From positions 1 to 64,000 of the forward strand of contig JARGNO010000013.1 of the NCBI GenBank assembly GCA_029213165.1: a stretch of 64,000 bases of DNA, written 5' to 3'. Below the pieces are notes generated by a model. That model saw only the letters and a list, made by a program, of their open reading frames with translations, had not been told where the DNA came from and ran no database searches. Source of the stretch: Minwuia sp. (GTDB taxonomy: Bacteria > Pseudomonadota > Alphaproteobacteria > Minwuiales > Minwuiaceae). The translations under genes and the position numbers were made by a program. Position 1 is the stretch's first letter; each line of letters starts with the position of its first letter. Positions 2,977 to 35,382 of the stretch are shown piece after piece.

Positions 2977-3756
2977 TCAGCAGTGCGTCAGCCGCAGATT
3001 CTTCCAGAACCGCCCGCCGCTGCGTTCCAGGCGCTCCATCCCGAGACCCAGCAATGTCAGCGCGAAGACCTTGTTGGACAGGACAGCGCGATTGTTGAAC
3101 TCCGCCCAGCTGCAATATGCGCCGTAGAAGACAGATGCCTTGATCGAGCCGCCGCTGACCGGTTCCGTCCGGTTCTGCAGAAAGTCGGTGACCTCCGACA
3201 CGGGCATGTCGCCCCGTTCCTCCGGCGGTGTGGCATCGAACTGCGGCAGCGGCGACCGCCGCCAGATCGACAGCCCTGCGGAGTTGCCGGCAAGGCGGCG
3301 CGCCTCCCGCACCATCTCCACCCAGATGCGGACATGATCGGCGCCCAGCCGCTCGATGATGTCGACCTCGCCGCCCTCTTCGTCGTCGGCCCCACCCGTT
3401 ACCGGATGATGGACATATTTGCCGGTTCGGCGGATGGCGGGCAGGACCTCCCCCGTCACCCACTTGCGGAAGCGGTGGGCCGTGGTGCCGGGCGTCACGG
3501 CGTCATGGCTGCGGAGGATCATGGTCAGCAGCCCAGACTCCGAAACAACCACCATGTTGGGGTTCCCCCGAATACCCTCAGAAATTCTGATGGTATTCTT
3601 CTCGTCATCATCCAGCCGCGATGACGCCTCGCTCGGGTTGGTGATCTCCAGCACTCGGCAGACATCTCCAAGAACGAACCAGGGCTGTCCGTCCTGGTCG
3701 ATGACCCGTACAGGCATTTCCTCGAAATCATACGTCGCAAGTTTCTGGTCAGTCAT
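2977..3756 (-). CDS. Bro-N antirepressor-like protein with D5/primase-type C-terminal domain
   Basis: The N-terminal third has the Bro-N fold signature (residues about 8-110: MPVRVIDQDGQPWFVLGDVC, then LDDDEKNT and ESGLLTMILRSH). Bro-N domains bind DNA and occur in phage antirepressors. The last 80 residues (FLQNRTEPVSGGSIKAS then WAEFNNRAVLSNKVFA, ending RSGGRFWKNLRL) resemble the winged-helix tail found at the C-terminus of phage D5-type primase-helicases. The start at MTDQKL (3756) is preferred over 3792; its ribosome-binding site is weak. It is divergent from a small HTH gene 75 bases away, which suggests a local switch. Function is inferred. Confidence 0.7.
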   Translation of the reverse strand: MTDQKLATYDFEEMPVRVIDQDGQPWFVLGDVCRVLEITNPSEASSRLDDDEKNTIRISEGIRGNPNMVVVSESGLLTMILRSHDAVTPGTTAHRFRKWVTGEVLPAIRRTGKYVHHPVTGGADDEEGGEVDIIERLGADHVRIWVEMVREARRLAGNSAGLSIWRRSPLPQFDATPPEERGDMPVSEVTDFLQNRTEPVSGGSIKASVFYGAYCSWAEFNNRAVLSNKVFALTLLGLGMERLERSGGRFWKNLRLTHC

Positions 3757-3831
3757 TGCGTTGCCTTTGCAGTTTGCGTCCCAATGGCCCATATTGACGA
3801 TGAACCAATCAACCGACGTTCAGCGTCTCAT

Positions 3832-14482: not shown

Positions 14483-16462
14483 CTACCTGTTCAGAATGCT
14501 GGAACGGCTGACCGGACCGGGGCGGCGCTGCGCGGCGGGGGCGCGGTTTGCCGGTGCCTCATCCGGCACGGCGCCCGGCACGGCGGTCATCGACACCACC
14601 ATGTCGGGTTGCACGGGACGGGCGTCACGCTGCTTCGCCAGTTCGGACCAGTCATCATCGGTGAAGCGGTCAAGCCGCAGCAGGGGATGGTGGGTCAGTG
14701 ACGTATTGTAGACACGGCAGTCGTGATAGTGGTTCTCACCGCGCGCCACCCATTCCCGCAGCGTGCGACCGGCGTGGACACGTTCCTTCACGTATTCCGC
14801 CGTGAGCTGCTGGAAATAGGCCTGGGACAGGTGGGTCGCGAAGTGACAGTAGCCCGGCGGATCGCTGTCCTTCCCCTCCGCGATGCCTTCCTTGCGCAGG
14901 CGACCGTAGAACGCGGCCTTCACCGACCATGTGCCGACGGGCCAGACCATCAGGCCGCGGCGCTTGCGCTTGCCGCTCGCCTTGATGTCGAGTTTGCCCG
15001 GTGCGTTGCCGATCTCCGGCGCCGTCCAGCCCGGCACGCCCTTCAGCGCCAGGGCCTTCGGCTTGCCGCGAACGAAGGCATAGACCGACGACGTGTTGTA
15101 GCCACTGTCCACCCCGGTCAGGTCGATCGTCAGGGATCCGCCGGTTTCCATCGGCCATGTCCGCTCGGTCAGGGCCGCCAGGTCCAGCCAGCATTTCGCA
15201 TCGTGCTGTGCCGTGTCGCCGGTCAGGAATCCGGCCTCCACCACCCAGCTGGTCCGGCCACGACCCCAGGCCACAACCTCGTAGTACAGTCCATCCTTCT
15301 GCACATCGACGGCGCAGGTCAGCACCAGGCCGCCACGCGGCACGATGCCGGGATCCATGGTGGTGCGCCGGGCGAACAGGCGGTTCCATTCGGGCGCGTC
15401 GCCGCGTTCCTCCCACGCCAGGCCCAGCGTCAGGTTCCAGAAGACCTTCAACTTCGTCGGGTCATCCTTCGACTTCAGGAAGTCGGCAACGATGCTGTCC
15501 CACTGGGCGAACAACGATGAAAGCGCGTCCAGGTGATAGGAAGGGCAACGACCGGGACCGGGGCATGTGGCCTGCCATTCACCGGCGCGGATCATTGCCG
15601 GTTTCTCGTGATGCTGGATCACGCAACCGTTGTGACGGCAGACGTAATGGGCCTGATGCGGAAATTCGCGGCGGAACTTCAGGCCAAAGGGGCTGTCCTT
15701 CGTGCCCCATTCCAGGCGCTGCTTCTCGCCGCAATGCGGGCAGGGCATGACCCAGTAACGCTGATCCCCGCCCTCGAACGCCGCATCGATGCGGCTTTCG
15801 CCTTTCACCGTCGGGGTGGAGGCGCGCAGGATCTTCCAGTCGCCCGTCGCGTCGTAGGACTTCTTGCGGGCGTCGGCCATCTCCAGAGGATCGCCCTGGC
15901 CATCGAGGTCCAGCGGCCAGTCGTCGATTTCGTCCTGCGACAGGTAGCGCCGGGTCTTCGACCGCAGATCCGCCGTGGAATTCGCGCCGGTCAGGATGAT
16001 CGATCCACCGGGAAACCGCTTCGTCCGGGCCGTCGATGACCGTGCCGAACGGCTGCCCGCGGCGGAAACCCTGCGCATGACGGCGGGGCTCGCCTCGAAC
16101 GACAGGTTCAGCTTCTCACGGTTGAAACTGTCCGCCGAATCCAGCGTCGGCATGATGATCATCATCGGCGCCGGATCAACGGCGGCGACGTACCCGGACC
16201 AGGCGATGCCCAACGTCGTGGCACCCACCTGCGCCGACTTCCGCAGCACAACCTCGTTCACCGGGCTGTCCGGTGCGAGCTGGTCCATGATCTCCACAAG
16301 ATGCGGCGTCTGGGCCGGGTTCCACTTCTGGCCGGACTGGGGCCCATCAGGCACCACCAGGTTCTGTGCGGCCCAGGCGGAGGGGCTGATCTGTGCTGCC
16401 GGCAGGATGCCAGCCGAAAGCGCGCCGAAGATCAGGGCAGTGACGGCGTTACGTGTCCACAT
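14483..16462 (-). CDS. Terminase large subunit (gpA family)
   Basis: A 659-residue packaging ATPase and nuclease. The ATPase domain shows a Walker A-type motif in VVLRKSAQVGATTL (about residues 70-83) and Walker B in YLSQDEIDDW. A zinc-finger-like CPHCGEK...YVCRHNGC segment follows. The nuclease domain begins at LVLTCAVDVQKDGLYYEVVA, with the metal-binding Asp. Start: the ATG at 16462 has GGAGG 6 bases upstream, so it is preferred over 16498; it then overlaps the small subunit gene by 14 bases. Lambda gpA is 641 residues. Confidence 0.93.
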   Translation of the reverse strand: MWTRNAVTALIFGALSAGILPAAQISPSAWAAQNLVVPDGPQSGQKWNPAQTPHLVEIMDQLAPDSPVNEVVLRKSAQVGATTLGIAWSGYVAAVDPAPMMIIMPTLDSADSFNREKLNLSFEASPAVMRRVSAAGSRSARSSTARTKRFPGGSIILTGANSTADLRSKTRRYLSQDEIDDWPLDLDGQGDPLEMADARKKSYDATGDWKILRASTPTVKGESRIDAAFEGGDQRYWVMPCPHCGEKQRLEWGTKDSPFGLKFRREFPHQAHYVCRHNGCVIQHHEKPAMIRAGEWQATCPGPGRCPSYHLDALSSLFAQWDSIVADFLKSKDDPTKLKVFWNLTLGLAWEERGDAPEWNRLFARRTTMDPGIVPRGGLVLTCAVDVQKDGLYYEVVAWGRGRTSWVVEAGFLTGDTAQHDAKCWLDLAALTERTWPMETGGSLTIDLTGVDSGYNTSSVYAFVRGKPKALALKGVPGWTAPEIGNAPGKLDIKASGKRKRRGLMVWPVGTWSVKAAFYGRLRKEGIAEGKDSDPPGYCHFATHLSQAYFQQLTAEYVKERVHAGRTLREWVARGENHYHDCRVYNTSLTHHPLLRLDRFTDDDWSELAKQRDARPVQPDMVVSMTAVPGAVPDEAPANRAPAAQRRPGPVSRSSILNR

Positions 16463-17027
16463 TGTCCGCCTCCACTTCCTGTTCAGTGTCCGTGCCACCG
16501 TCGTCCGGCAGGCTGATCGCCTCGGCGACCGATTTGCGAATATCGCGAGCCCGTTGCTTCAGGACCTGACGGACGGCATTCGCGCCACCATCGATCGCCG
16601 CCGCCACCAGTTCGTCCGCCAGCTGCGGCAAGGCATCCAGGGCGCGGGCGATCTCTGTTCCCGCCTGGCTCATGGCATCGACCACCATGTCGCGGGGCAG
16701 CAACTGCCCCATCCGCTTCTCGTACTCCAGCCGTGCTGTCTGAGCCTGGTAGTGCTCCCGCTCCGCACGGGCGTCGCGATACGACTGGCGATCACCATCC
16801 GCCGCGGACGGAGCCTCGGATACCGCAGCCGGGCTCGGCATGTCCGGACCGGGGCGCACGAACTCTTGCGACGGGTCACTGTTCTCGCCACGCATCCGAT
16901 CAGCGACGTCCGGGTCAATCCGGCCTTTGTCATCTTTCGGGATGCCGAGGGTCGCGACGGCTTTTGAAATCGCCTGCCGACTGACACCGCGCCGCCGCGC
17001 ATAGTCCGCTTGGGATACAAACGACAT
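16449..17027 (-). CDS. Terminase small subunit (Nu1-like)
   Basis: A 192-residue DNA-recognition subunit. The N-terminus is a winged helix-turn-helix (SQADYARRRGVSRQAISKAV). A long charged helix follows (YRDARAEREHYQAQTARLEY), then a helical region that should contact the large subunit. GAGG lies just before the start at 17027. As in lambda it heads the late operon, so its DNA target, the cos site, is expected in the upstream gap (17028-17275), where repeats are seen. Confidence 0.88.
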   Translation of the reverse strand: MSFVSQADYARRRGVSRQAISKAVATLGIPKDDKGRIDPDVADRMRGENSDPSQEFVRPGPDMPSPAAVSEAPSAADGDRQSYRDARAEREHYQAQTARLEYEKRMGQLLPRDMVVDAMSQAGTEIARALDALPQLADELVAAAIDGGANAVRQVLKQRARDIRKSVAEAISLPDDGGTDTEQEVEADNVDT

Positions 17028-17275: not shown

Positions 17276-17896
17276 TCATCCGTCGAGTGGTCCCCACCGG
17301 CTTGGCCCCACCACCGCGAACCTCTCCATCCTGCCCTCCAACCTTTTGGCGACACGAGTCAATCCGGCATGCCATTTCGCGTAGGTCTGCCGATCATGCT
17401 CCACCAGGTCCGGCCCATGGTCCAGCCGCAGCGGCGTATGTCGCCCGACCCCTCGCGGCGCGTCGCCGGGATCGGACAGCGCTTTCCCGGCTGCGTTCCG
17501 CCATGGCACCAGCCGCTGCGGCACCATCGGCGGCCAGTCCGGGATCGAGGCTGTTTCGGCGTGATGCGCCAGCAGCCCGACTGTTTCGTGATCCTCTTCG
17601 CAGACGGCTTCGAACACGGCGACGGCATCGGCGGGGGCACGACAGTTCCCGACCCCGGCATGTCCCGGCCCGGAGGTATCGACGATGGTGCCGAGCTGCA
17701 TGATCCTTCCGATCACGCTGGCATTGGAGGAAGGCGACGGCCCTGGCCCGTATCGCCCGGCGAGGGCGCGGTTGATTTCGGTGACGACGCACTGGTCCCG
17801 GAACGCCCAAACCAGCAGTTCCTCCACATCGATCGTGACCCGCACATCAATGGAGGCACGCTGAGGGTCGCTGAGGGTCGAATGGATAGACGTCAT
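17276..17896 (-). CDS. Hypothetical phage protein between helicase and terminase genes
   Basis: A 206-residue protein I do not recognise. The ATG at 17896 has GGGGA 8 bases upstream. The N-terminal third (VRVTIDVEELLVWAFRDQCV) looks globular, with a conserved-looking ALAGRYGPGPSP segment. The middle has an HH/HAE-rich part (EEDHETVGLLAHHAETASIP), and the C-terminal third is basic (YAKWHAGLTRVAKRLEGRME). The first codons contain the outer arm of the GAGGGT repeat array (17861-17877), so the array and the gene's 5' end evolve together. An antisense frame of equal length exists on the plus strand but lacks a comparable start site. Confidence 0.6.
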   Translation of the reverse strand: MTSIHSTLSDPQRASIDVRVTIDVEELLVWAFRDQCVVTEINRALAGRYGPGPSPSSNASVIGRIMQLGTIVDTSGPGHAGVGNCRAPADAVAVFEAVCEEDHETVGLLAHHAETASIPDWPPMVPQRLVPWRNAAGKALSDPGDAPRGVGRHTPLRLDHGPDLVEHDRQTYAKWHAGLTRVAKRLEGRMERFAVVGPSRWGPLDG

Positions 17897-18096
17897 GAAG
17901 ATATTCCCCTGTATTTCAGTCAGTTACAACTTCAATGGAGGGTGTGGAGGGTCATTCGGAAAACTGGCCTCACATGCGCGCGCCCCTGAGGCACTTTCCC
18001 CGATAACCCTCCACACCCTCCACACCCTCCATCGCCTCAATATTTTCAATGGCTTGCACAATGGAGGGACACCAAGTCTCCCTCAGCGACCCTCAG
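17861..18096. repeat. Nested inverted-repeat array with GAGGGT core, candidate origin or operator
   Basis: An outer pair, CTGAGGGTCGCTGAGGG (17861-17877) and its exact inverse (18080-18096), surrounds an inner pair, ATGGAGGGTGTGGAGGGT (17935-17952) and its exact inverse (18015-18032). A further ACCCTCCAC (18006-18014) and ATGGAGGGA (18061-18069) carry the same core. In all there are about ten GAGGG cores, five per strand, centred near 17980. The gap is otherwise moderately AT-rich and lies beside the replicative helicase gene, so an iteron origin is plausible; a repressor operator is the alternative. Confidence 0.7.
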
Positions 18097-18145: not shown

Positions 18146-19714
18146 TTACCCGCCATAGTCACCCTCCGACGGCGCCGGGCTTTCATCCTCCCGGACGCCG
18201 ATGCCGATGTAGAACCGCCCACCGCTGCGGTCCTTCCGCTCGTAGCCCATCTCCACCATCTTCTGGCCGAACGCCTTGTTCGACCACACTCGTTCGCCGA
18301 CCCGCTTGCACCATTCCTGGTAGGCGTCGAACAGCTTGCCCGCGCCGATGTCCAGATGTGGATTGACCACCACCATGGCCGCCACGAACTTGCCCACCGG
18401 GTCCCCTTCGGCGCGGTAGTCGGCGGTCGCGTCCGCCACCTCCGCCGGCACCTGCAACCCATCCTCCAGCCACAGCCGCAACCCATCCAGAACCCAGTTC
18501 AGCACCCCAGACCGTTCCGCCCACAGCCTGTCGGGCAGCGCCGCATCCCGTTCCGCAACCGGTATCTGTACCTCCCATGGCACCAGCAGCACGCGCCGCC
18601 AGATGCCGTCATCCTGGTCGCTGATCTTCGGCTTGTGGTTGCCCGCGATGACGATCTTGAACTGCGGCAGGAAATGGAACGGCGGCTTGTAGAGCTGCCG
18701 CGCGGGCAGCGGGTCACCGCCCGTCATGGTCTTCAGCCGCGCCGGGTCCAGCTCCTGCCCCCGGTTCGGTTCGGAGACCTGGACGAAGCGCGCGCCGGGC
18801 AGTTCCGCGATATCCGGGGTCGCTTCCGACCCGCTGCGCCGGTCATCCTTGATCAGGCTCCCGAACGGCAGCGCCTTGGTATAGCCCCCCATCATCCGCC
18901 CGATCAGATTGTTGAAGGTCGATTTGCCGTTCGCCCCTCCACCGAAATCGAACACCATCTTCTGTTCGTCGGTGCGCCCGGTCTGGCAATATCCTGTCCA
19001 CCGCTGCAGGAACCCGCGTACCGGGGCCAGGGGCTGTACCCTGTGCAGGAATGCCTTGAATACCGGGGCATCCGCCGCCGGGTCATAGGTCACCGGGCAC
19101 AGGTGCGTGATCAGATCGCCCCGCTCATGCGGCCGCAGCACGTCACAGGCACCGGACAGCTCCAGCGTCCCGTTCTCCAGGTTCAGCACCATCGGGTCGC
19201 TGTCCAGCGCCGCCGCTGGCACGTTCAGATAGGGCTCCGCCTCCCGGATCATCGCCGTGATCCGCTTCGATTCCCCGCATTCGGCGGACCATCCCCCCAG
19301 CGCGCTGGCCAGATCCCGCAGCCGCGACCGGTCCACATGCGGCGTCGCCTCGGATTCGGAGGCCTCCCGCGCCGCCTGCGCCTCCACCAGCACCATCCGC
19401 GCCGTGAAGTGCGCCACCTGGCGCAGCGCCGCCACCGCCCCCTTGGTGGTCCAGCGCCGCCCGTCCCAGCGATGCCAGCCCAGTTCCGGGATGTTCATGA
19501 AGTCCCCGCCGGCCCGCGCGATCAGCCTGTCCGCATTGCCGACATCGTTCAGTTCCTTTTCGGCCAGCTCCAGGTCGCTGGGCCCGCCGGGCCGGGGCCG
19601 GGGCAGGGCCACCCCACCGTCCGGTCCCTCATCGTCCCGCCGCACACCGCCGGGAAAGGGCACCACACCCGCCGCCGCCGCCGCCGACCTGATCGCATCC
19701 GTATCCGTTGTCAC
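18146..19714 (-). CDS. P4/D5-family primase-helicase (SF3)
   Basis: This 522-residue protein is the phage replicative helicase. A D5-type N-terminal part (YLNVPAAALDSDPMVLNLENG then VLRPHERGDLITHLCPVTYD) precedes an SF3 ATPase: Walker A in FGGGANGKSTF (about residue 270), an arginine-rich sensor region, and IVIAGNHKPKISDQDDGIWRR, the diagnostic motif C of this group. A winged-helix tail ends the protein. Its start overlaps the prim-pol stop (ATGA), so primase and helicase are made together. Confidence 0.92.
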   Translation of the reverse strand: MTTDTDAIRSAAAAAGVVPFPGGVRRDDEGPDGGVALPRPRPGGPSDLELAEKELNDVGNADRLIARAGGDFMNIPELGWHRWDGRRWTTKGAVAALRQVAHFTARMVLVEAQAAREASESEATPHVDRSRLRDLASALGGWSAECGESKRITAMIREAEPYLNVPAAALDSDPMVLNLENGTLELSGACDVLRPHERGDLITHLCPVTYDPAADAPVFKAFLHRVQPLAPVRGFLQRWTGYCQTGRTDEQKMVFDFGGGANGKSTFNNLIGRMMGGYTKALPFGSLIKDDRRSGSEATPDIAELPGARFVQVSEPNRGQELDPARLKTMTGGDPLPARQLYKPPFHFLPQFKIVIAGNHKPKISDQDDGIWRRVLLVPWEVQIPVAERDAALPDRLWAERSGVLNWVLDGLRLWLEDGLQVPAEVADATADYRAEGDPVGKFVAAMVVVNPHLDIGAGKLFDAYQEWCKRVGERVWSNKAFGQKMVEMGYERKDRSGGRFYIGIGVREDESPAPSEGDYGG

Positions 19715-21297
19715 AGGCCCCTCCGCCGCATCCGGTTCGCCATGTCCCGCAGACCGGGAATGACCATTTCACTTACCTGCCGCCCGAATCCGGCATGCGC
19801 CGAACCGATGCGCGCCAGCTCCGCCGCATCGATCTCCCCGCCATGCACGATGATCAGCCGCCGCACCACATCGGGTAACCGTACCGATATCCTGTCGCCG
19901 CGCCCGGGCAGCGCCCAGCAGGCCCGGTTCAGCACACTGGCCACGGCCAGCGCCTGCAGCACGTCTCCGGCCAGCAGCAGTTCCCGCTCCGCCGCCCGGA
20001 TCCGTATCGTGCCCCCGTCGGGCACACCGATGCAGCGGACATCACCGCCGCCGTCCGCATCCATGGTCACCACGCCGATCCCCCCGGCGCTGCCATCGCG
20101 AACCGGAAACATCAGGTCACCCCGTGTCCCGCAGGCACCACTCTCCGGCCGCAGGAACCGCGCATCCACACTGTCCGGATCGATCCCGAACCGCCGCAGC
20201 GCCGTCGCCGCCGGGGTCGCGGGCACCGGCCACCCGGCCCGCCACAGCTTCCCCGCATCGCGAATCCCCGTCTGCCGCCGTTCCGTCGGTGCCACAGACG
20301 CATCATGGTCCGCGCCGGATCCGGCACCGCCGGTCCTGACGTCCCGCCCCCGCACGATCTCCGCCACCTTCGCCGCCGCCCGCCCGCAGGCGGCCATCCC
20401 GCCCCGCAGGCCCGACCCGATGGTGGCCTCCACCGCCTTGACGCCGTCGTCCGCCACCAGGCCGCTGATCTCCGCCGCCCGGCCCAGCACCTGGCGCACC
20501 TCGCTCTCGCCGATCGCCCCCGCACCGACCAGTTGCCCCAGTGAATAGGCCGCCCGGTTCAGGGCATCATTGCGCTGCCCCTTGCCCGCCCGCGCCACGT
20601 CACCATGCGCCCCGTCCAGCGCCGCCTCGACGTACCGCCGCAACCGGCTGTCGCCCTCTGCCGCCGCCATCCTGACCCGCGCCGGAACCGGCCCGGCCGG
20701 TCCCGCCACCGGGGGCGGGGCCGACGGTTCATCCTCCCGCAGGAACAGCACCCGCAGCCCCTCCGGCAAGGCGGGCAGGGGTTGTCCCGGTTGCCACGGC
20801 ACCGCCCAGGTATAGCGCCGCCCCGATGCCATCCGCGACGGCGGCGCGATCACGTAGCCATTGTCCGCCCTGAAATCGACGCCGCGACAGGGCTTCCGGT
20901 TGCCGATCACGGTCCCTTCGGGCACCTCCGGCCGGGCGAACCACAGATGCACCCCCCCGGACTGGGTCACCACCGCCGCCCCGTCCGCCGGGATCGTCTC
21001 CCCCGCGACCTCCGACAGCCGCCGCAGCACGTCCAGCGGCTTCTCGCCTGGGGCGGGGTCCAGATCCACCACCACCGCCCCCGCGGTGCCCGGCACCACC
21101 CCGATCAGCGCATCGGTCCACCGGAACCACCATTGCGTCACCTGGTCGATCCGTGCACTCGCAACCTTGAATCCATCCTCGATCAGCGGTTGCTTGCCCT
21201 TCTGGCCACCCCAGCCGGGATGACACGGAAACACCGGAATCCCGTGCCGCGCAAACCCCACCGCCGCCCGCCCGATCGCATTCAGCGCATCAGCCAT
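19711..21297 (-). CDS. Bifunctional primase-polymerase (AEP prim-pol)
   Basis: A 528-residue protein that should lay primers for phage DNA synthesis. The AEP catalytic core is at residues about 10-185: YGIPVFPC-like ARHGIPVFPCHPGWGGQKGK, the metal-binding VVVDLDPAP, SGGVHLWFARP and GVDFRADNGYVIAPPS. The C-terminal half has a Toprim-like region (LMFPVRDGSAGGIGVVTMDA). The start at 21297 has GGGAG upstream; 21318 is less likely. A plus-strand toxin-antitoxin pair separates it from the methyltransferase gene upstream. Confidence 0.88.
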   Translation of the reverse strand: MADALNAIGRAAVGFARHGIPVFPCHPGWGGQKGKQPLIEDGFKVASARIDQVTQWWFRWTDALIGVVPGTAGAVVVDLDPAPGEKPLDVLRRLSEVAGETIPADGAAVVTQSGGVHLWFARPEVPEGTVIGNRKPCRGVDFRADNGYVIAPPSRMASGRRYTWAVPWQPGQPLPALPEGLRVLFLREDEPSAPPPVAGPAGPVPARVRMAAAEGDSRLRRYVEAALDGAHGDVARAGKGQRNDALNRAAYSLGQLVGAGAIGESEVRQVLGRAAEISGLVADDGVKAVEATIGSGLRGGMAACGRAAAKVAEIVRGRDVRTGGAGSGADHDASVAPTERRQTGIRDAGKLWRAGWPVPATPAATALRRFGIDPDSVDARFLRPESGACGTRGDLMFPVRDGSAGGIGVVTMDADGGGDVRCIGVPDGGTIRIRAAERELLLAGDVLQALAVASVLNRACWALPGRGDRISVRLPDVVRRLIIVHGGEIDAAELARIGSAHAGFGRQVSEMVIPGLRDMANRMRRRGL

Positions 21298-21377
21298 GCT
21301 CGGCTCCCGCGCCGCCACCAGTCTGCCCGTTCACCCGGAAATGACCCGGACGCAGGCAGATGGACGATGCAAATTTT

Positions 21378-21424
21378 GCTATACTTTGCTTGACTATTTC
21401 CCGCCAAATTGCTATATTATGCTT
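21378..21424 (+). promoter_or_regulatory. Promoter and paired direct repeats of the toxin-antitoxin operon
   Basis: TTGACT (21390-21395) and TATATT (21413-21418) are separated by 17 bases, a strong sigma-70-type match. Two similar 14-mers, GCTATACTTTGCTT (21378-21391) and GCTATATTATGCTT (21411-21424), overlap the -35 and -10 boxes, as an operator for the HTH antitoxin would. The stretch is markedly AT-rich compared with its surroundings. Confidence 0.75.
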
Positions 21425-21442
21425 ATCGGAACAACGGGGGCC

Positions 21443-21700
21443 ATGATGGAACTGACGATCACGAAGCGGGCGGGCAAGGAACTGGCCAAGGCACCGGCCC
21501 ATGTCCGCGCCGCCGTCATCGAAAAGATCAAATCCATCTCCACCGGCACCGATGCCGCGAACCTCGATATCCGCCCGCTGGCAGGCAGCACCGACGAATT
21601 CCGCCTCCGCCATGGTGCATATCGCGCCATCTTCACCATTCAGGATGATATCCTGACCGTCACGGCCTTCGGACCCCGTGGCGGCATCTACAACAGATAG
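21443..21700 (+). CDS. RelE/ParE-superfamily toxin
   Basis: An 85-residue protein with the RelE fold pattern: TKRAGKELAKAPAHVRAAVI, a middle DIRPLAGSTDEFRLRHGAYR and the final TVTAFGPRGGIYNR. RelE-type toxins cut mRNA on the ribosome, and ParE-type toxins poison gyrase; the sequence does not decide between them. ATG at 21443 or 21446 follows GGGGG. The antitoxin gene follows 12 bases downstream, so this operon has toxin first, the reverse of classical relBE but common with HTH antitoxins. Confidence 0.85.
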   Translation: MMELTITKRAGKELAKAPAHVRAAVIEKIKSISTGTDAANLDIRPLAGSTDEFRLRHGAYRAIFTIQDDILTVTAFGPRGGIYNR

Positions 21701-21712
21701 GGGAGAGACCTG

Positions 21713-22198
21713 ATGACCACCGACGACAGCACCACCATGGGGTTCATGACCTCCAGCCCCGATTTCTTCGCCAGGCCGGAGAAAACGGATTCCCGATCCC
21801 CGTTCCAGATCACCCGCGACCAGACCGGCCGCGCGGTCAGCGCCTCCATGGACTGGCAGACCTTCCTCGGCATCGCGACACCGGAAATGCTGGCGCTTGT
21901 CCCCGACGACGACTTGGCCGGCATCTCCGCCGCCCGTGCCGCGCACGACCCCGACAGCCGCGAAACCGAACCGCTGGAGGTCGCCGAACGGCTGATGCTC
22001 GGTGATCACCCGATCAAGGTCTGGCGTGAATACCGCGGCCTCACCCAGACCGAACTGGCTTCCCGTGCCGACACCAGCAAGGCCTATGTCTCCCAGCTTG
22101 AAACCGGCACCCGCAGTCCCAGTCGGAAGCTGCTGACCGCCATCGCCGCCGCCCTCGATGTTCCTGCCCGCGACCTTCTCCCGGACCCGAACGACTGA
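21713..22198 (+). CDS. XRE-family HTH antitoxin
   Basis: A 161-residue partner of the toxin. The helix-turn-helix is near residues 100-150 (VWREYRGLTQTELASRADTS then KAYVSQLETGTRSPSRK). The N-terminal part (MDWQTFLGIATPEMLALVPD) is the likely toxin-binding segment. GGGAGAG lies just before the start. It should bind the direct repeats over the promoter at 21378-21424 and repress the operon. The pair could stabilise the prophage or act in exclusion. Confidence 0.85.
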   Translation: MTTDDSTTMGFMTSSPDFFARPEKTDSRSPFQITRDQTGRAVSASMDWQTFLGIATPEMLALVPDDDLAGISAARAAHDPDSRETEPLEVAERLMLGDHPIKVWREYRGLTQTELASRADTSKAYVSQLETGTRSPSRKLLTAIAAALDVPARDLLPDPND

Positions 22199-22215
22199 TC
22201 CGTCCCTGCGCCGGC

Positions 22216-23604
22216 TCATGCCGCCACCCCGAACGACGCCAGCACCAGCGCGCGGGATGTGCGGGTCGGCACCGCATTGCCGATCTGCCGTTTCACCTCG
22301 GTTTTCGTGCCTCTGAAGTCGTAATCCCTCGGAAACGACATCGCCGCCGCCAGCTCGTGCGGCTGCAGCATCCGATAACGGATATCCACCGGCGGCCCCT
22401 GCACAGGCTCGATCAGCCCGAACCGGTCCCGCGTCGTCACGGTGTCCAGCGTCTCCGACACCGGCTTCGCGCTGGCATTGTTGCCGTAATAGGCCATCAC
22501 CATGGGTTCGATCAGTGCGCCCGCACCGCGCGACGTGACTGTCGGCAACGGGGCGTTGATATCGTGATTGCGCGGTGACTGTCCGGCCCGTTCGCCGAAG
22601 TTCGGCACGATGAACGGCTCCACCAGCGCATGCGCGCCCAGCGCCGGAATCGTCGCCATCGGCTTGTCCACTGCCCGCGCCAGTCCTCCGGATTGCTGTG
22701 CCAGGATGATGGGCTGCACCGGCTCCACCAGCCCGAAATGGCTCCCGCCGGCGGTGATCGCGGGCAGGGGCAGGTCCAGGTCGCGGGCATCGGCGTGATT
22801 GCGCAGCACGACCAGAAACGGTTCCGCCGCCGCCCCGAACCGCGACAGCCCCGCCGCGATCCGCGCCAGCGTCTTCGGGCGCAACGGCCGGTCCCGGCTG
22901 AAGATCGATGCCGACGGCAGCGACCAGTCGATGATCTCCCGCGCCGCCCGCCACGGGGCCATGCCCATTTCGGATGCCCCGTCTGGGCGGGCGTGGCTCT
23001 GCCGCGGCCAGGTGATCGGCCCCCCGTCGCGGCGCCCCAGCAGGAAGAACCGCTCCCGCGTCGTCGGATCGCCATAATCGGCACAGTTCAGCACCCGGCA
23101 TTCGACGTTGTAGCCGATGGCGCGCAGGGCACTCAGCCAGGCACCGAAGAATTCGCCGCGCCTGCTCGGGACCGGGCGGCCCGTTTCCGGGTCGACGGGG
23201 CCCCACTGCATGAATTCCGGCACGTTCTCGATCATGATCCGGTCGACCCGCAGCGACGTGCACCACGTCACCACGTGCCATGGGTCCATCCGCTGCTGGT
23301 CGCTGGTCGGCTTTCCGCCCCGCGCCCGGCTGTGATAGGTGCATGTCGGCGACGCCATCAACAGGTCCAGCCGCCCCTCCGGCACGATCACTTCCGGCCG
23401 TGCAGTGCCGATATCGACACAATGATGCCGCGCACCGGGATGGTTCGCCGCATGGGTCTCGATCGCCACCGGCCAGTGATTGACGCAGACCAGCTCCGGC
23501 ACCTTGCCCAGCCGCTCCAGCGCCATCACCGCCCCCGTCGAACTCCCGCCGGCCCCGCAGAACAGATCCGCGATCAGCGCCGGTTGCGCCCGCCCCCCGC
23601 TCAC
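22216..23604 (-). CDS. C5-cytosine DNA methyltransferase
   Basis: A 462-residue enzyme that would methylate cytosine at C5. Motif I is IADLFCGAGGSS (14-22), the catalytic cysteine is Cys88 in ASPTCTYHSRARGGKP, the ENV motif is at 126-128, motif VIII-like CADYGDPTTRERFFLLGRR follows, and motif X is KRQIGNAVP near the end. Between VIII and X lie four related units ending in VEP or IEP (GSHFGLVEP, GAHALVEP, GAGALIEP, RFGLIEP), a repeat-built target-recognition region. No restriction partner is nearby, so it probably protects phage DNA. It overlaps the other methyltransferase gene by 4 bases. Confidence 0.92.
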   Translation of the reverse strand: MSGGRAQPALIADLFCGAGGSSTGAVMALERLGKVPELVCVNHWPVAIETHAANHPGARHHCVDIGTARPEVIVPEGRLDLLMASPTCTYHSRARGGKPTSDQQRMDPWHVVTWCTSLRVDRIMIENVPEFMQWGPVDPETGRPVPSRRGEFFGAWLSALRAIGYNVECRVLNCADYGDPTTRERFFLLGRRDGGPITWPRQSHARPDGASEMGMAPWRAAREIIDWSLPSASIFSRDRPLRPKTLARIAAGLSRFGAAAEPFLVVLRNHADARDLDLPLPAITAGGSHFGLVEPVQPIILAQQSGGLARAVDKPMATIPALGAHALVEPFIVPNFGERAGQSPRNHDINAPLPTVTSRGAGALIEPMVMAYYGNNASAKPVSETLDTVTTRDRFGLIEPVQGPPVDIRYRMLQPHELAAAMSFPRDYDFRGTKTEVKRQIGNAVPTRTSRALVLASFGVAA

Positions 23605-24392
23605 AGCATCGCCTCCTGTCGGGCGCGGTCAGGGGGCTGCACGAACAGGTCGCCCTGGCGGTGTGCCTCGCGGATGCGGCTGACGGCGACGTCGAAATAC
23701 CGTGCATCCCGTTCGATGCCGGTGAAGGGCCGTCCCGCCCGTACGCAGGCGACGCCGGTGCTGCCCGATCCCATGAACGGGTCCAGCACCGACCGGCCCG
23801 GGTCCGTGAACAGGCCCACCAGCTCCGCCATCAGGCTGACCGGCTTTTCGGTCGGGTGCATGCCGTGACGGTCCCGCCCATTGCACGGGTGCGTGAAGAC
23901 ATTGCGCCGCCCGCCACCGTTCCAGCGTGACAGGCCGCCGCCACACCAGGCGGCAACGAAGTTCTCCGCACCCATCGCCGGGCCCTGGCCATTGAACTGT
24001 GGCGCGCTGTCCGGTTTCACCCAGACGCAGGCGCGCTTGTACCGTGCCCCGCTGGCCTCCAGCACATCACGCCACGGCGCCACCCCCTCCGGCGTGCAGA
24101 ATATCAGGCACCAGCCGTCTGTCTGGCTGACCAGCATCGGCGTCACCACGTCCCGGATCGCGTCGATGCTCTCGAAATCCACCGGCGGCGGGTTGGCGTG
24201 GCCATCCGTCCGGATCCGCCGCGCCGATCCGTTCGCCCCTTGCCCCCGCTTCGCCGCGTGCATGTGCGATTCATAGGGCGGATCGGTGATCACGGCGCCG
24301 AACGCACCGCCCAGGACGGGCAGGACTTCCAGGCAATCGCCATGGATCAGCGTGCATGCACCGATGCGCTCAACCCTCCACCCGCCGCTCAT
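23601..24392 (-). CDS. Adenine-N6 or cytosine-N4 DNA methyltransferase
   Basis: A 263-residue amino-methyltransferase of the beta order: catalytic DPPY at residues 37-40 (VITDPPYESH) comes before the SAM-binding motif in VLDPFMGSGSTGVACVRAG. HPTEKPVSLM is the usual conserved box. The target site is unknown. It is too short for the C-terminal domain of CcrM, but it lies in an operon with a GcrA-like gene (4-base overlap), which raises the question of a methylation link. It overlaps the C5 enzyme gene by 4 bases. Confidence 0.9.
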   Translation of the reverse strand: MSGGWRVERIGACTLIHGDCLEVLPVLGGAFGAVITDPPYESHMHAAKRGQGANGSARRIRTDGHANPPPVDFESIDAIRDVVTPMLVSQTDGWCLIFCTPEGVAPWRDVLEASGARYKRACVWVKPDSAPQFNGQGPAMGAENFVAAWCGGGLSRWNGGGRRNVFTHPCNGRDRHGMHPTEKPVSLMAELVGLFTDPGRSVLDPFMGSGSTGVACVRAGRPFTGIERDARYFDVAVSRIREAHRQGDLFVQPPDRARQEAML

Positions 24393-24988
24393 GCCGCCGT
24401 CTCCGGGTCATCGTCGTTCTTCACCCGTGGGCGGGATGCAGCATCGTGTATCGCGCACAGCCCGCGCCGTCGGGACACCACCGGCCCGGCACCGCAGAAC
24501 CCGAATCCGACCTCCCCGACTTCCCCGATCGGCCAGGCGCAACGGCCCCTGGGCGGTTCATGCAGGCCGGGCCAGTGGGCGGTACCATCGCATTCGGGTA
24601 CCGTTGCCCGGTCGGGCGCCTTCCGGCATGTCGTGTCATCCTCCGCCCGGCGCACCAGCACCAGGTCGGTCGGGCAGGCGGCCACCGCCGCCCGCATCGC
24701 CGCCGCTTCTGCCCGGGCCTGTTCGATCTCGTCCCGCATCTGCTGTGCCATGGCGTGGCTCTTCCGCTGTGCCTTGCGCCATGCCTCCCGGCCCGCAGGC
24801 GCACCCTGTCCACCCTTTTGCACGCTCAGGCCCAGGCGACCCCGCTGTCCGCAAACCATCCCGGTGCTGACGCCGATCCCGAACTCCCGGGTCAGGATCC
24901 CGGCGGTTTCCTGTACCGGCCTCCCCTCCCGATGCAGCACCCGCAACCGCGCCCGCATGGCATTCGTCCATATGCTCGGGCCAGGCAT
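24389..24988 (-). CDS. GcrA-like cell-cycle transcription factor
   Basis: A 199-residue protein. The N-terminus is a GcrA-type DNA-binding region (SIWTNAMRARLRVLHREGRP, with IWT replacing the usual SWT). A long alanine/glutamate helix follows at about residues 75-110. The C-terminus has the family's cysteine-rich RNA-polymerase-binding pattern: RCAWPIGEVGEVGFGFCGAG then RGLCAIHDAA. In Caulobacter GcrA activates promoters carrying methylated GANTC. Here it sits in a phage early operon with two DNA methyltransferases. The ATG at 24988 is used; a TTG directly before it is an alternative. Confidence 0.75.
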   Translation of the reverse strand: MPGPSIWTNAMRARLRVLHREGRPVQETAGILTREFGIGVSTGMVCGQRGRLGLSVQKGGQGAPAGREAWRKAQRKSHAMAQQMRDEIEQARAEAAAMRAAVAACPTDLVLVRRAEDDTTCRKAPDRATVPECDGTAHWPGLHEPPRGRCAWPIGEVGEVGFGFCGAGPVVSRRRGLCAIHDAASRPRVKNDDDPETAA

Positions 24989-25041
24989 CAAAGACCCCTT
25001 CGCGGATTGTGCGGTGCCCGGTTTCCTGTAATCATCGGGTC

Positions 25042-33992: not shown

Positions 33993-34246
33993 ACGCCCCA
34001 GCGCGCATCGTCCGGCAGGGACAGGCGGCCTATCCGCCGCTGCTGATGCGTCGCGACACGGCGGCGGCGTTCCTCGATCTGTCCACCACCACCTTCGACC
34101 GCTGGATCGACTCCGGGCACCTGGGCCCCGGCACCCGCATCGACGGCGTCCGCGTCTGGCACCGCGACGACCTTGCCGCCGCCGCCGATCGGCTGTTGAA
34201 TAGGGCCACGGCGACCGGGCAGGGCGGCAACCTGTGGGACGGATGA
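33989..34246 (+). CDS. Excisionase/AlpA-like winged-helix protein
   Basis: An 85-residue protein with a MerR/AlpA-type DNA-binding motif: LMRRDTAAAFLDLSTTTFDR, then WIDSGHLGPGTRIDGVRVWH. Its position directly before the integrase, overlapping it by 4 bases, suggests it is the Xis that directs excision. A purely regulatory AlpA role is also possible. Confidence 0.65.
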   Translation: MNAPARIVRQGQAAYPPLLMRRDTAAAFLDLSTTTFDRWIDSGHLGPGTRIDGVRVWHRDDLAAAADRLLNRATATGQGGNLWDG

Positions 34247-35382
34247 CGCCACCGCCGCCCGCGCCGGATGACGGGCAGGGGAATGACATGTTGCTGGCGC
34301 GGCTGCGCTACATCGTTCAGGACAGGGACCGGCACGGCAATGTCCGCATCTACGTGCGCCGCCATGGCCGCAAGATCCGCCTGCGCGAAACCCCGGGCAC
34401 CAAGGCGTTCATGGCCGAATACCACGCCGCCCTGGCCGGTCAGCTCCCGCCATCACCGCGCCGCATGGCCCCGGATGATGGATCATTGCAGCACATGATC
34501 GACGAATACATGAAGTCGGCCACATGGCGCGCGCTGTCGCCGTCCACCCAGAAACTGCGGCGCAGCATCCTGAACCGCACCGCGGCGGAGGTGGTCGGTG
34601 ACCATACCGCAGGCAGCCTGCCAGTCAGTGCCATGGCCCGGCGCCACGTGGTCATGCTCCGCGACCGCGTGGCCGACAGGCCGGCAGCCGCCAACAATCG
34701 GGTGAAGATGTTGCGCCAGATGTTTTCCTGGGCGATCGAGAATGACCTGATCGGCGAAAACCCGGCGCGGCATGTGCGGTCACTCGACATGGTCGGCAAC
34801 AGCTGGACGCCCTGGACCCTCGAAGACATCGACGCATTCGCCCGGCATCACGCCGACGACCCCCGCGCGATGCTGGCACTGCACCTGCTGGTCTGGACCG
34901 GCGTGCGGCGCAGCGATGTCGTCACTCTGGGGCAGCAGCATGTCCGGACCATCGACGGACAGATGCATCTGGTCTTCACCATGACCAAGGGGCGGAAACG
35001 CAACCCGCGGCGTGTGGAACACCTGATATCGCCTCCGCTGAAACAGGCCATCGATCGCTGGGCCGACCCCGCGCAGCTGACGTTTCTCACGAACCAGTGG
35101 GGCCGGCCGTACACGGTTGAGGGTTTCGGCAACAGCTTCCGCAAGTGGTGCCAGCGCGCGGGCCTGGCTGACGGCCTCTCCGCCCACGGAATCCGCAAGG
35201 GTGTCGCTGCGATGACGGCCGAACTGGGCGCCAGCGAACACCAGATCATGGCCATGCTGGACCACGCCACCCCGTCGCAGGGTGCCGTCTATACGCGCAG
35301 CGCCAACCGCCGCCGCATGTCCGGCGAAGCCGTCACCAGCCTCAGCACCAAATTGTCCCACCTGCACCCCGGAAATAAATAG
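34243..35382 (+). CDS. int: Tyrosine integrase
   Basis: A 379-residue site-specific recombinase. The N-terminal arm-binding and SAM-like domains precede the catalytic domain, whose active residues are visible: Arg at 222-223 (TGVRRSDVV), Lys249 (MTKGRKR), His315 and Arg318 (SAHGIRKG), His341 (MLDHAT) and the nucleophile Tyr350 (AVYTRS). It should recombine the phage into the tRNA-Arg(CCT) gene, whose 3' end is 54 bases past the stop. The start at 34243 overlaps the excisionase-like gene. Confidence 0.95.
   Translation: MTPPPPAPDDGQGNDMLLARLRYIVQDRDRHGNVRIYVRRHGRKIRLRETPGTKAFMAEYHAALAGQLPPSPRRMAPDDGSLQHMIDEYMKSATWRALSPSTQKLRRSILNRTAAEVVGDHTAGSLPVSAMARRHVVMLRDRVADRPAAANNRVKMLRQMFSWAIENDLIGENPARHVRSLDMVGNSWTPWTLEDIDAFARHHADDPRAMLALHLLVWTGVRRSDVVTLGQQHVRTIDGQMHLVFTMTKGRKRNPRRVEHLISPPLKQAIDRWADPAQLTFLTNQWGRPYTVEGFGNSFRKWCQRAGLADGLSAHGIRKGVAAMTAELGASEHQIMAMLDHATPSQGAVYTRSANRRRMSGEAVTSLSTKLSHLHPGNK

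Follow-up and report, generated by a model that had tools for sequence, protein, structure and literature searches.

The array of inverted repeats lying between a helicase gene and the terminase genes of the prophage studied here is predicted to be a cis-acting replication origin, with the D5/SF3 helicase encoded just upstream as its initiator. We put the probability of this reading, which was drawn from sequence comparison, at roughly 0.86. Three features of the iteron-origin class served by D5/SF3 initiators, namely a helicase core with a winged-helix-like domain, copies of a word 3' of the helicase gene and facing sets of copies around an AT-richer centre, were present in the window (the whole 64-kb stretch of DNA analysed), and a fourth, a conserved layout, was seen in relatives. 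The first-pass annotation had already favoured an iteron origin, with the Prim-Pol and helicase genes serving it, and this proved to be the best fit in view of three surveys of helicase relatives and of the related layouts of Sfi21, P4 crr and pRN1. Origins of this kind are already known for a few elements. The literature searched, which included few subscription papers, yielded no report that phages with a D5/SF3 helicase follow this layout in general. We found also that most arrays of GC-rich phages carry a central alternating tract, which is new here; the titles and abstract beginnings searched held no description of such a tract in these phage origins.

The repeat array and its prophage setting

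The window, taken from an 87,211-base contig in a bacterial genome of 4.1 Mb, carries a prophage, with an integrase gene (34234-35382) adjoining a tRNA-Arg gene. The minus strand presents, in order, Prim-Pol, the D5/SF3 helicase, the array, ORF 17276-17896, the small and large terminase genes, the portal and the head protease (Table 1). The annotated location of the array between helicase and terminase genes was confirmed, the small terminase being the one on its side.

Table 1 Coordinates of the array elements and of the neighbouring genes in the window
Feature	Position	Strand	Remarks
Prim-Pol primase/polymerase, directly upstream of the helicase gene	19711..21318	-	Pfam Prim-Pol 2.9e-30
D5/SF3-type helicase, 522 aa, proposed initiator	18146..19714	-	Pfam D5_N 6.7e-26, DUF5906; PHROG DNA primase 3.5e-126
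Outer iteron doublet beside the helicase stop	18080..18096	-	Two GAGGG cores, 10 bp apart
Single extra copy, opposite orientation	18063..18070	+	Core at 18064
Inner iteron triplet TGGAGGGTG, 9-bp spacing	18006..18032	-	
Central spacer, 53 bp	17953..18005	.	GC 0.60 vs 0.67 in the surrounding 10 kb
Alternating purine-pyrimidine tract CACATGCGCGCGC (GCGCGCGCATGTG on the minus strand)	17971..17983		13-nt run
Inner iteron doublet TGGAGGGTGTGGAGGGT, 9-bp spacing	17936..17952	+	
Outer iteron doublet, 10-bp spacing, in the first codons of ORF 17276-17896	17861..17877	+	
Conserved ORF, PHROG 9306, function not known	17276..17896	-	
Small terminase	16449..17027	-	phrog_57 1e-30
Large terminase, GpA type	14483..16498	-	Pfam GpA_ATPase/GpA_nuclease

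The array spans 50 to 285 bp past the helicase stop codon and holds ten GAGGG/CCCTC cores in 236 bp (17861-18096), with GAGGG on the plus strand at 17863, 17873, 17938, 17947 and 18064 and CCCTC at 18007, 18016, 18025, 18080 and 18090. The sense of the cores is uniform within each half and opposite between the halves, the core at 18064 being the sole exception; the count of about ten cores in the first-pass annotation was right, and its division into opposite halves is broken by this one copy. Two perfect inverted pairs, of 17 bp (17861-17877 and 18080-18096) and of 18 bp (17935-17952 and 18015-18032), have their centres at 17978.5 and 17983.5, only 5 bp apart, so that the nearly shared centre reported before was found again. 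Read in the sense of the helicase gene, the order is a doublet (10 bp), a reversed single copy, a triplet (9 bp), the 53-bp centre, a doublet (9 bp) and a doublet (10 bp). The 9-bp triplet at 18006-18032 and the central alternating tract CACATGCGCGCGC go beyond the earlier description. The facing sets are unequal, with a triplet against a doublet across the 53 bp, and the AT excess of the centre is small.

Dinucleotide shuffling of 17861-18096 (n = 2000) showed that this symmetry is unlikely to arise by chance, as had been claimed: the shuffled sequences held 1.09 cores on average and five at most, none of the 2000 reached ten, and a perfect inverted arm of at least 17 bp appeared in two of them. 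No other 236-bp stretch of the window contained more than three cores. The 17-mer TGGAGGGTGTGGAGGGT occurs exactly three times in the whole host genome, always within the array, and this genome has a single array of such a kind. The cumulative GC skew of the window had no turning point at 18 kb and was uninformative, because most genes lie on one strand.

Relatives of ORF 17276-17896 made up 16 of 96 ORFs located 3' of arrays in an iterated search, one of these matches being weak, and none was found in phage records. The structural model of its product (pLDDT 72.7) gave no fold match, the best E value being 3.5. PHROG 9306 recurs directly after such arrays, and the relatives start with a similar LLxWAF segment. 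The product may be an accessory protein.

Some further genes of the window were noted. On the minus strand, an 805-aa ORF upstream of Prim-Pol (21290-23707) has no Pfam or PHROG match at E 0.001, and a gene at 24389-24991 codes for a phage-borne GcrA-like cell-cycle regulator (Pfam 8.1e-07, above the family cut-off), close to a DNA methyltransferase gene (23601-24392). A Bro-N antirepressor-type protein is encoded at 2977-3792, also on the minus strand, and its C-terminal part resembles the C-terminal segment of the helicase (match at 2995-3150, 37% identity, E 1.7e-4). The "antirepressor" of Rhizobium phage RR1-A (L033, 7720-8448) has the same helicase-like C-terminal resemblance; in RR1-A, the candidate array lies two genes beyond the helicase gene, after the "antirepressor" gene instead. 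Initiators and regulators may have a DNA-binding domain in common.

Layout across helicase relatives

Loci were chosen by helicase similarity alone, with repeats disregarded and no word specified. An array was defined as any 7-mer present at least twice on each strand, and at least five times in total, within 350 bp. It was searched for from -150 to +1500 around the helicase stop, the same span upstream serving as control. Survey 1 comprised 80 IMG/VR loci, the window and five named or genome relatives (n = 86). Survey 2, from a second seed, retained 70 of 80 loci after removal of ten (three duplicate proteins, seven with a missing stop or too little DNA). Survey 3 started from a third seed; 46 of 78 were dropped as already met, which left 32 new contigs, two more of the 80 being old loci.

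Arrays were present 3' of the helicase gene in 57/86, 42/70 and 28/32 loci of surveys 1, 2 and 3, respectively, upstream of it in 3/74, 0/65 and 0/27, and inside the gene in 7/86, 1/70 and 2/32. With a stricter rule based on 40 shuffles per region, survey 1 gave 45/80 downstream and 1/73 upstream. Two of the three upstream matches of survey 1 (L134 and L138) resemble real arrays placed on the opposite side of the gene. Conservation among related phages, proposed at first pass as a check, had a mixed outcome: relatives retained the layout, the word often changed, and the 7-mer rule detected no array in 29 of the 86 loci of survey 1, 28 of the 70 of survey 2 and 4 of the 32 of survey 3. The words included GGAGGGT, GGAGGAT, AGGGACG, GGACAGC, GGTTACT, GTGACGG, TGGAAGG and more, and the facing halves and the position, mostly within about 400 bp past the stop, were constant across them. 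In survey 1, the distance between same-strand neighbours (up to 40 bp) was 9 bp for 157 of 317 spacings, and in survey 3 (up to 30 bp) for 72 of 145; survey 2 had a broader distribution over 9-12 bp, with 22 of 116 spacings at 9 bp and 26 at 11 bp.

The reverse approach, starting from the exact 17-mer, retrieved 26 IMG/VR loci. The window helicase had a tblastn match in 15 of them, and in 13 of the 15 the helicase gene runs towards the array and stops just short of it. L018 and L023 differ in that the GGAGGGT match is found upstream of the helicase, at a distance of about 3 kb. These two very similar contigs each carry a GGAGGGT doublet with inverted copies (12842-12946 in L018 and 5958-6062 in L023), which may reflect either a different use of GGAGGGT or an origin placed at the opposite side.

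The genes 3' of the arrays varied in kind and lay on either strand while the helicase side was constant, and this variation disfavours an operator, at which a regulator binding the repeats would control ORF 17276-17896 or the late operon. Such a function was one of the alternatives given at first pass, and two features of the window are in keeping with it: the outer left arm indeed lies in early codons (about 7-12) of ORF 17276-17896, as annotated, and the Bro-N antirepressor bears the helicase-like C-terminal segment. A two-sided symmetry over 236 bp, together with an AT-richer centre, suits an origin better, and we regard the operator as very unlikely.

The other alternative given at first pass, a packaging site at which the small terminase would bind the array as part of a cos or pac region, is still less probable. 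The array lies upstream of the terminase genes, TerS and TerL following it in the window; L015 and L028 also carry a GpA-type terminase adjoining the array, and the RcapNL record places a cohesive end soon after the primase gene. Among the 96 ORFs 3' of survey-1 arrays, however, at least seven matched small-terminase and at least one large-terminase families (25 of 33 families), and, of the 15 GGAGGGT loci that matched the helicase, only L015 and L028 also matched a TerL of the window type, a test that other types could escape. The layout is also common to P4 crr and pRN1, which are both replication elements. We rejected packaging as the main reading because the arrays follow the helicase and not the terminase.

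The central alternating tract

The widest gap separating exact copies of opposite sense was taken as the centre of an array, and a strict rule called for two facing tandems. The GC content of the centre was below that of the locus in 48/50 arrays of survey 1, 32/34 of survey 2, 27/27 of survey 3 and 10/11 of the GGAGGGT set, the latter being the 11 of 15 arrays with at least four copies. In GC-rich phages, most of the array centres carry a strictly alternating purine-pyrimidine run. That of the window (17971-17983) gave P 0.007 by shuffling and P 0.001 when compared with windows of equal length from the 10 kb around it.

The alternation was first noticed in survey 1 and then tested there, so that survey 3 is the cleaner test. 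Under dinucleotide shuffling, survey 1 had 33 strict centres, of which 22 gave P below 0.05. For survey 3, 23 of the 27 centres were used (L288, L290, L296 and L305 omitted); 15 qualified as strict, and P was below 0.05 for 13 of them. The other intra-array intervals of at least 30 bp gave 0/54 (survey 1) and 0/19 (survey 3) at P below 0.05; these intervals were submitted to mononucleotide shuffles only, and the centres to both mono- and dinucleotide shuffles. In survey 3, 21 of 27 centres passed by both shuffling and locus windows.

The largest-gap centres reached P below 0.05 by shuffling in 25/50 (survey 1), 5/34 (survey 2, mostly AT-rich) and 3/11 (GGAGGGT set), and against same-locus windows in 30/50, 8/34 and 5/11, respectively. 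With the strict rule, survey 2 gave 2/5 by shuffling and 3/5 by locus windows, and the GGAGGGT set 0/5 and 1/5. Outside flanks of equal length reached the run of the centre in 14/99 cases in survey 1, 27/68 in survey 2, 6/22 in the GGAGGGT set and 4/54 in survey 3. Identical gaps were counted once in the centre tests, except in that of the 27 centres of survey 3; many loci are related phages, and pooled P values overstate their independence. The effect is weak in AT-rich phages, whose runs, if any, are mostly ATATAT. The central tract is not universal among arrays.

The 35 tracts of at least 12 nt had a median length of 17 nt and contained 148 CG, 77 TG, 55 CA and 38 TA steps. A hairpin reading of the tract was tried and rejected: compared with shuffles that keep the pattern, the 35 tracts had a mean z of -0.22, nine being below -1 and seven above 1. 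Since the tracts are no more prone to hairpins than shuffles keeping the alternation, it seems that the alternation itself, and not pairing, has been kept. Alternating CG/CA tracts favour Z-DNA.

Proposed mechanism and comparison with known origins

The helicase model, built with 37 sequences, had a mean pLDDT of 90.4. The secondary structure of its C-terminal end (helices 439-447, 458-472 and 479-488; strands 448-457, 492-496 and 499-507) follows the order H-E-H-H-E-E, and residues 439-507 are thus predicted to be arranged as in a winged-helix-like C-terminal domain. VIA-align matched residues 35-514 of the model to the SaPI5 primase-helicase (Z 29.1, rmsd 4.3, 395 residues), a score tied with that of a second SaPI5 entry and just below that of an AsfvPrimPol entry (30.3). 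Among the matches listed, the SaPI5 protein (7ola) was also the one whose best stretch in the sequence profile reaches furthest into the C-terminal end. A single-protein search of viral and genome contig collections found no close relatives of the helicase. Iteron similarity was correlated with identity of the helicase core (0.415) and of the winged helix (0.251); the partial Mantel value for iteron word and winged helix given the core was 0.087 (P 0.05).

We propose that the C-terminal winged helix of the helicase would bind the GGAGGGT iterons. Two helicase rings would then be set head to head by the facing halves, with the 53-bp centre between them; driven by ATP, the rings would melt this centre, and the co-encoded Prim-Pol would prime the opened strands. 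The central alternating tract may be the place or the trigger of opening. Binding, two-ring loading, melting, priming and origin activity itself are all inferred, and the steps after binding are modelled by analogy with SaPI, P4 and pRN1. More tentatively, and with the odds somewhat against it, phages with D5/SF3 helicases, and the pRN1 origin with them, could have a common plan in which iterons about 9 bp apart face each other across a centre that, in GC-rich genomes, opens through its alternating tract. The CG/CA/TG tract would flip to left-handed Z-DNA under supercoiling, or yield at its pyrimidine-purine steps, and this transition, rather than A/T-richness, would trigger melting between the two rings. 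The role given here to Z-DNA would follow from what is established on CG/CA tracts.

Few phages with a helicase of the D5/SF3 family are known to have a mapped origin. Candidate origins can be found, without the word being known beforehand, by looking immediately downstream of the helicase gene for facing words spaced by about 9 bp. The tract, present in independent samples and lacking in the remaining intervals of the same arrays, is relevant to how an origin rich in GC opens without the usual A/T-rich element; being one short stretch, it can be swapped for testing.

The record of Streptococcus phage Sfi21 annotates as origin the 302 bp after the primase gene, where TTAGTTACTTAGTTACT faces GTAACTAAGTAACTA. 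As in the window, this origin directly follows a D5-type primase gene and has facing tandem pairs (TAGTTAC word) and an AT-rich centre, but its spacing is 8 bp and its centre A/T, against 9 bp and a CG-rich alternating tract. In P4, crr is located 46 bp downstream of alpha and has type 1 repeats at 9-bp spacing with inverted copies. P4 differs from the window in carrying a further array, at ori, roughly 2 kb past the start of alpha, where the window genome has one array, and in its TOPRIM primase (PMC4234260, in the part consulted).

The SaPI elements resemble the window in their D5-type initiator helicase, the C-terminal domain of which binds DNA and recognises the iterons directly downstream of its own gene, according to the sections of PMC7581432 consulted. 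In SaPI5 the primase and the helicase form a single protein, and in the window two separate ones. Cch2 of SCCmec is likewise a D5_N helicase whose C-terminal domain binds direct repeats 3' of its own gene; it differs from the window in having three AAGTG iterons and inverted repeats that are dispensable for binding (same sections of PMC7581432).

The archaeal plasmid pRN1 encodes, like the window, a Prim-pol/SF3/winged-helix initiator, with an origin that starts 54 bp 3' of the gene. In the sections of PMC4234260 consulted, its authors interpret this origin as a stem-loop without iterons, the 100-bp stem-loop being necessary, and sufficient when combined with the replication operon. A comparable reading of the window array, in which a hairpin or cruciform formed by the long inverted repeats would matter and not protein-binding words, could appeal to the long perfect arms present there. 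We judge it improbable, although less so than the operator. The copies recur singly, in 9-bp tandems, with mismatched arms and in odd numbers per side, and each arm of the pRN1 stem itself holds the hexamer TGGACA twice at 9-bp spacing. The binding of Cch2, moreover, survived deletion of the inverted repeats and not of the direct repeats (PMC7581432, in the same sections). PMC4234260 contains no data on compensatory changes in the pRN1 stem. The array rule flagged pRN1 alone among the pRN-family plasmids; by eye, a repeat is clear in one arm of pHEN7, pRN2 has only the 4-base GGAC in two copies 9 bp apart, and none is evident in pDL10. This leaves room for a structural stem-loop in those plasmids, and an iteron reading of these stems is weaker in the rest of the family than in pRN1. 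In pHEN7 (L308, 189-283), the loop of the pRN-type stem holds an alternating palindrome, TACACGCGTGTA.

Compared with the iteron origin proposed for the window, pRN1 has one doublet per side without outer copies, and its alternating run is only 7 nt long. The Bordetella phage BPP-1 carries TTTGCCTCG twice in tandem, as 9-bp doublets, facing copies of CGAGGCAAA across about 70 bp, and its centre contains a 14-nt alternating run, CATACGTGTACATG. For its near-identical relative BIP-1, a replication start at a stem-loop has been proposed (PMC4234260, in the part consulted). The facing-iteron layout offers an alternative and testable reading of these "stem-loop" origins of pRN1 and the Bordetella phages.
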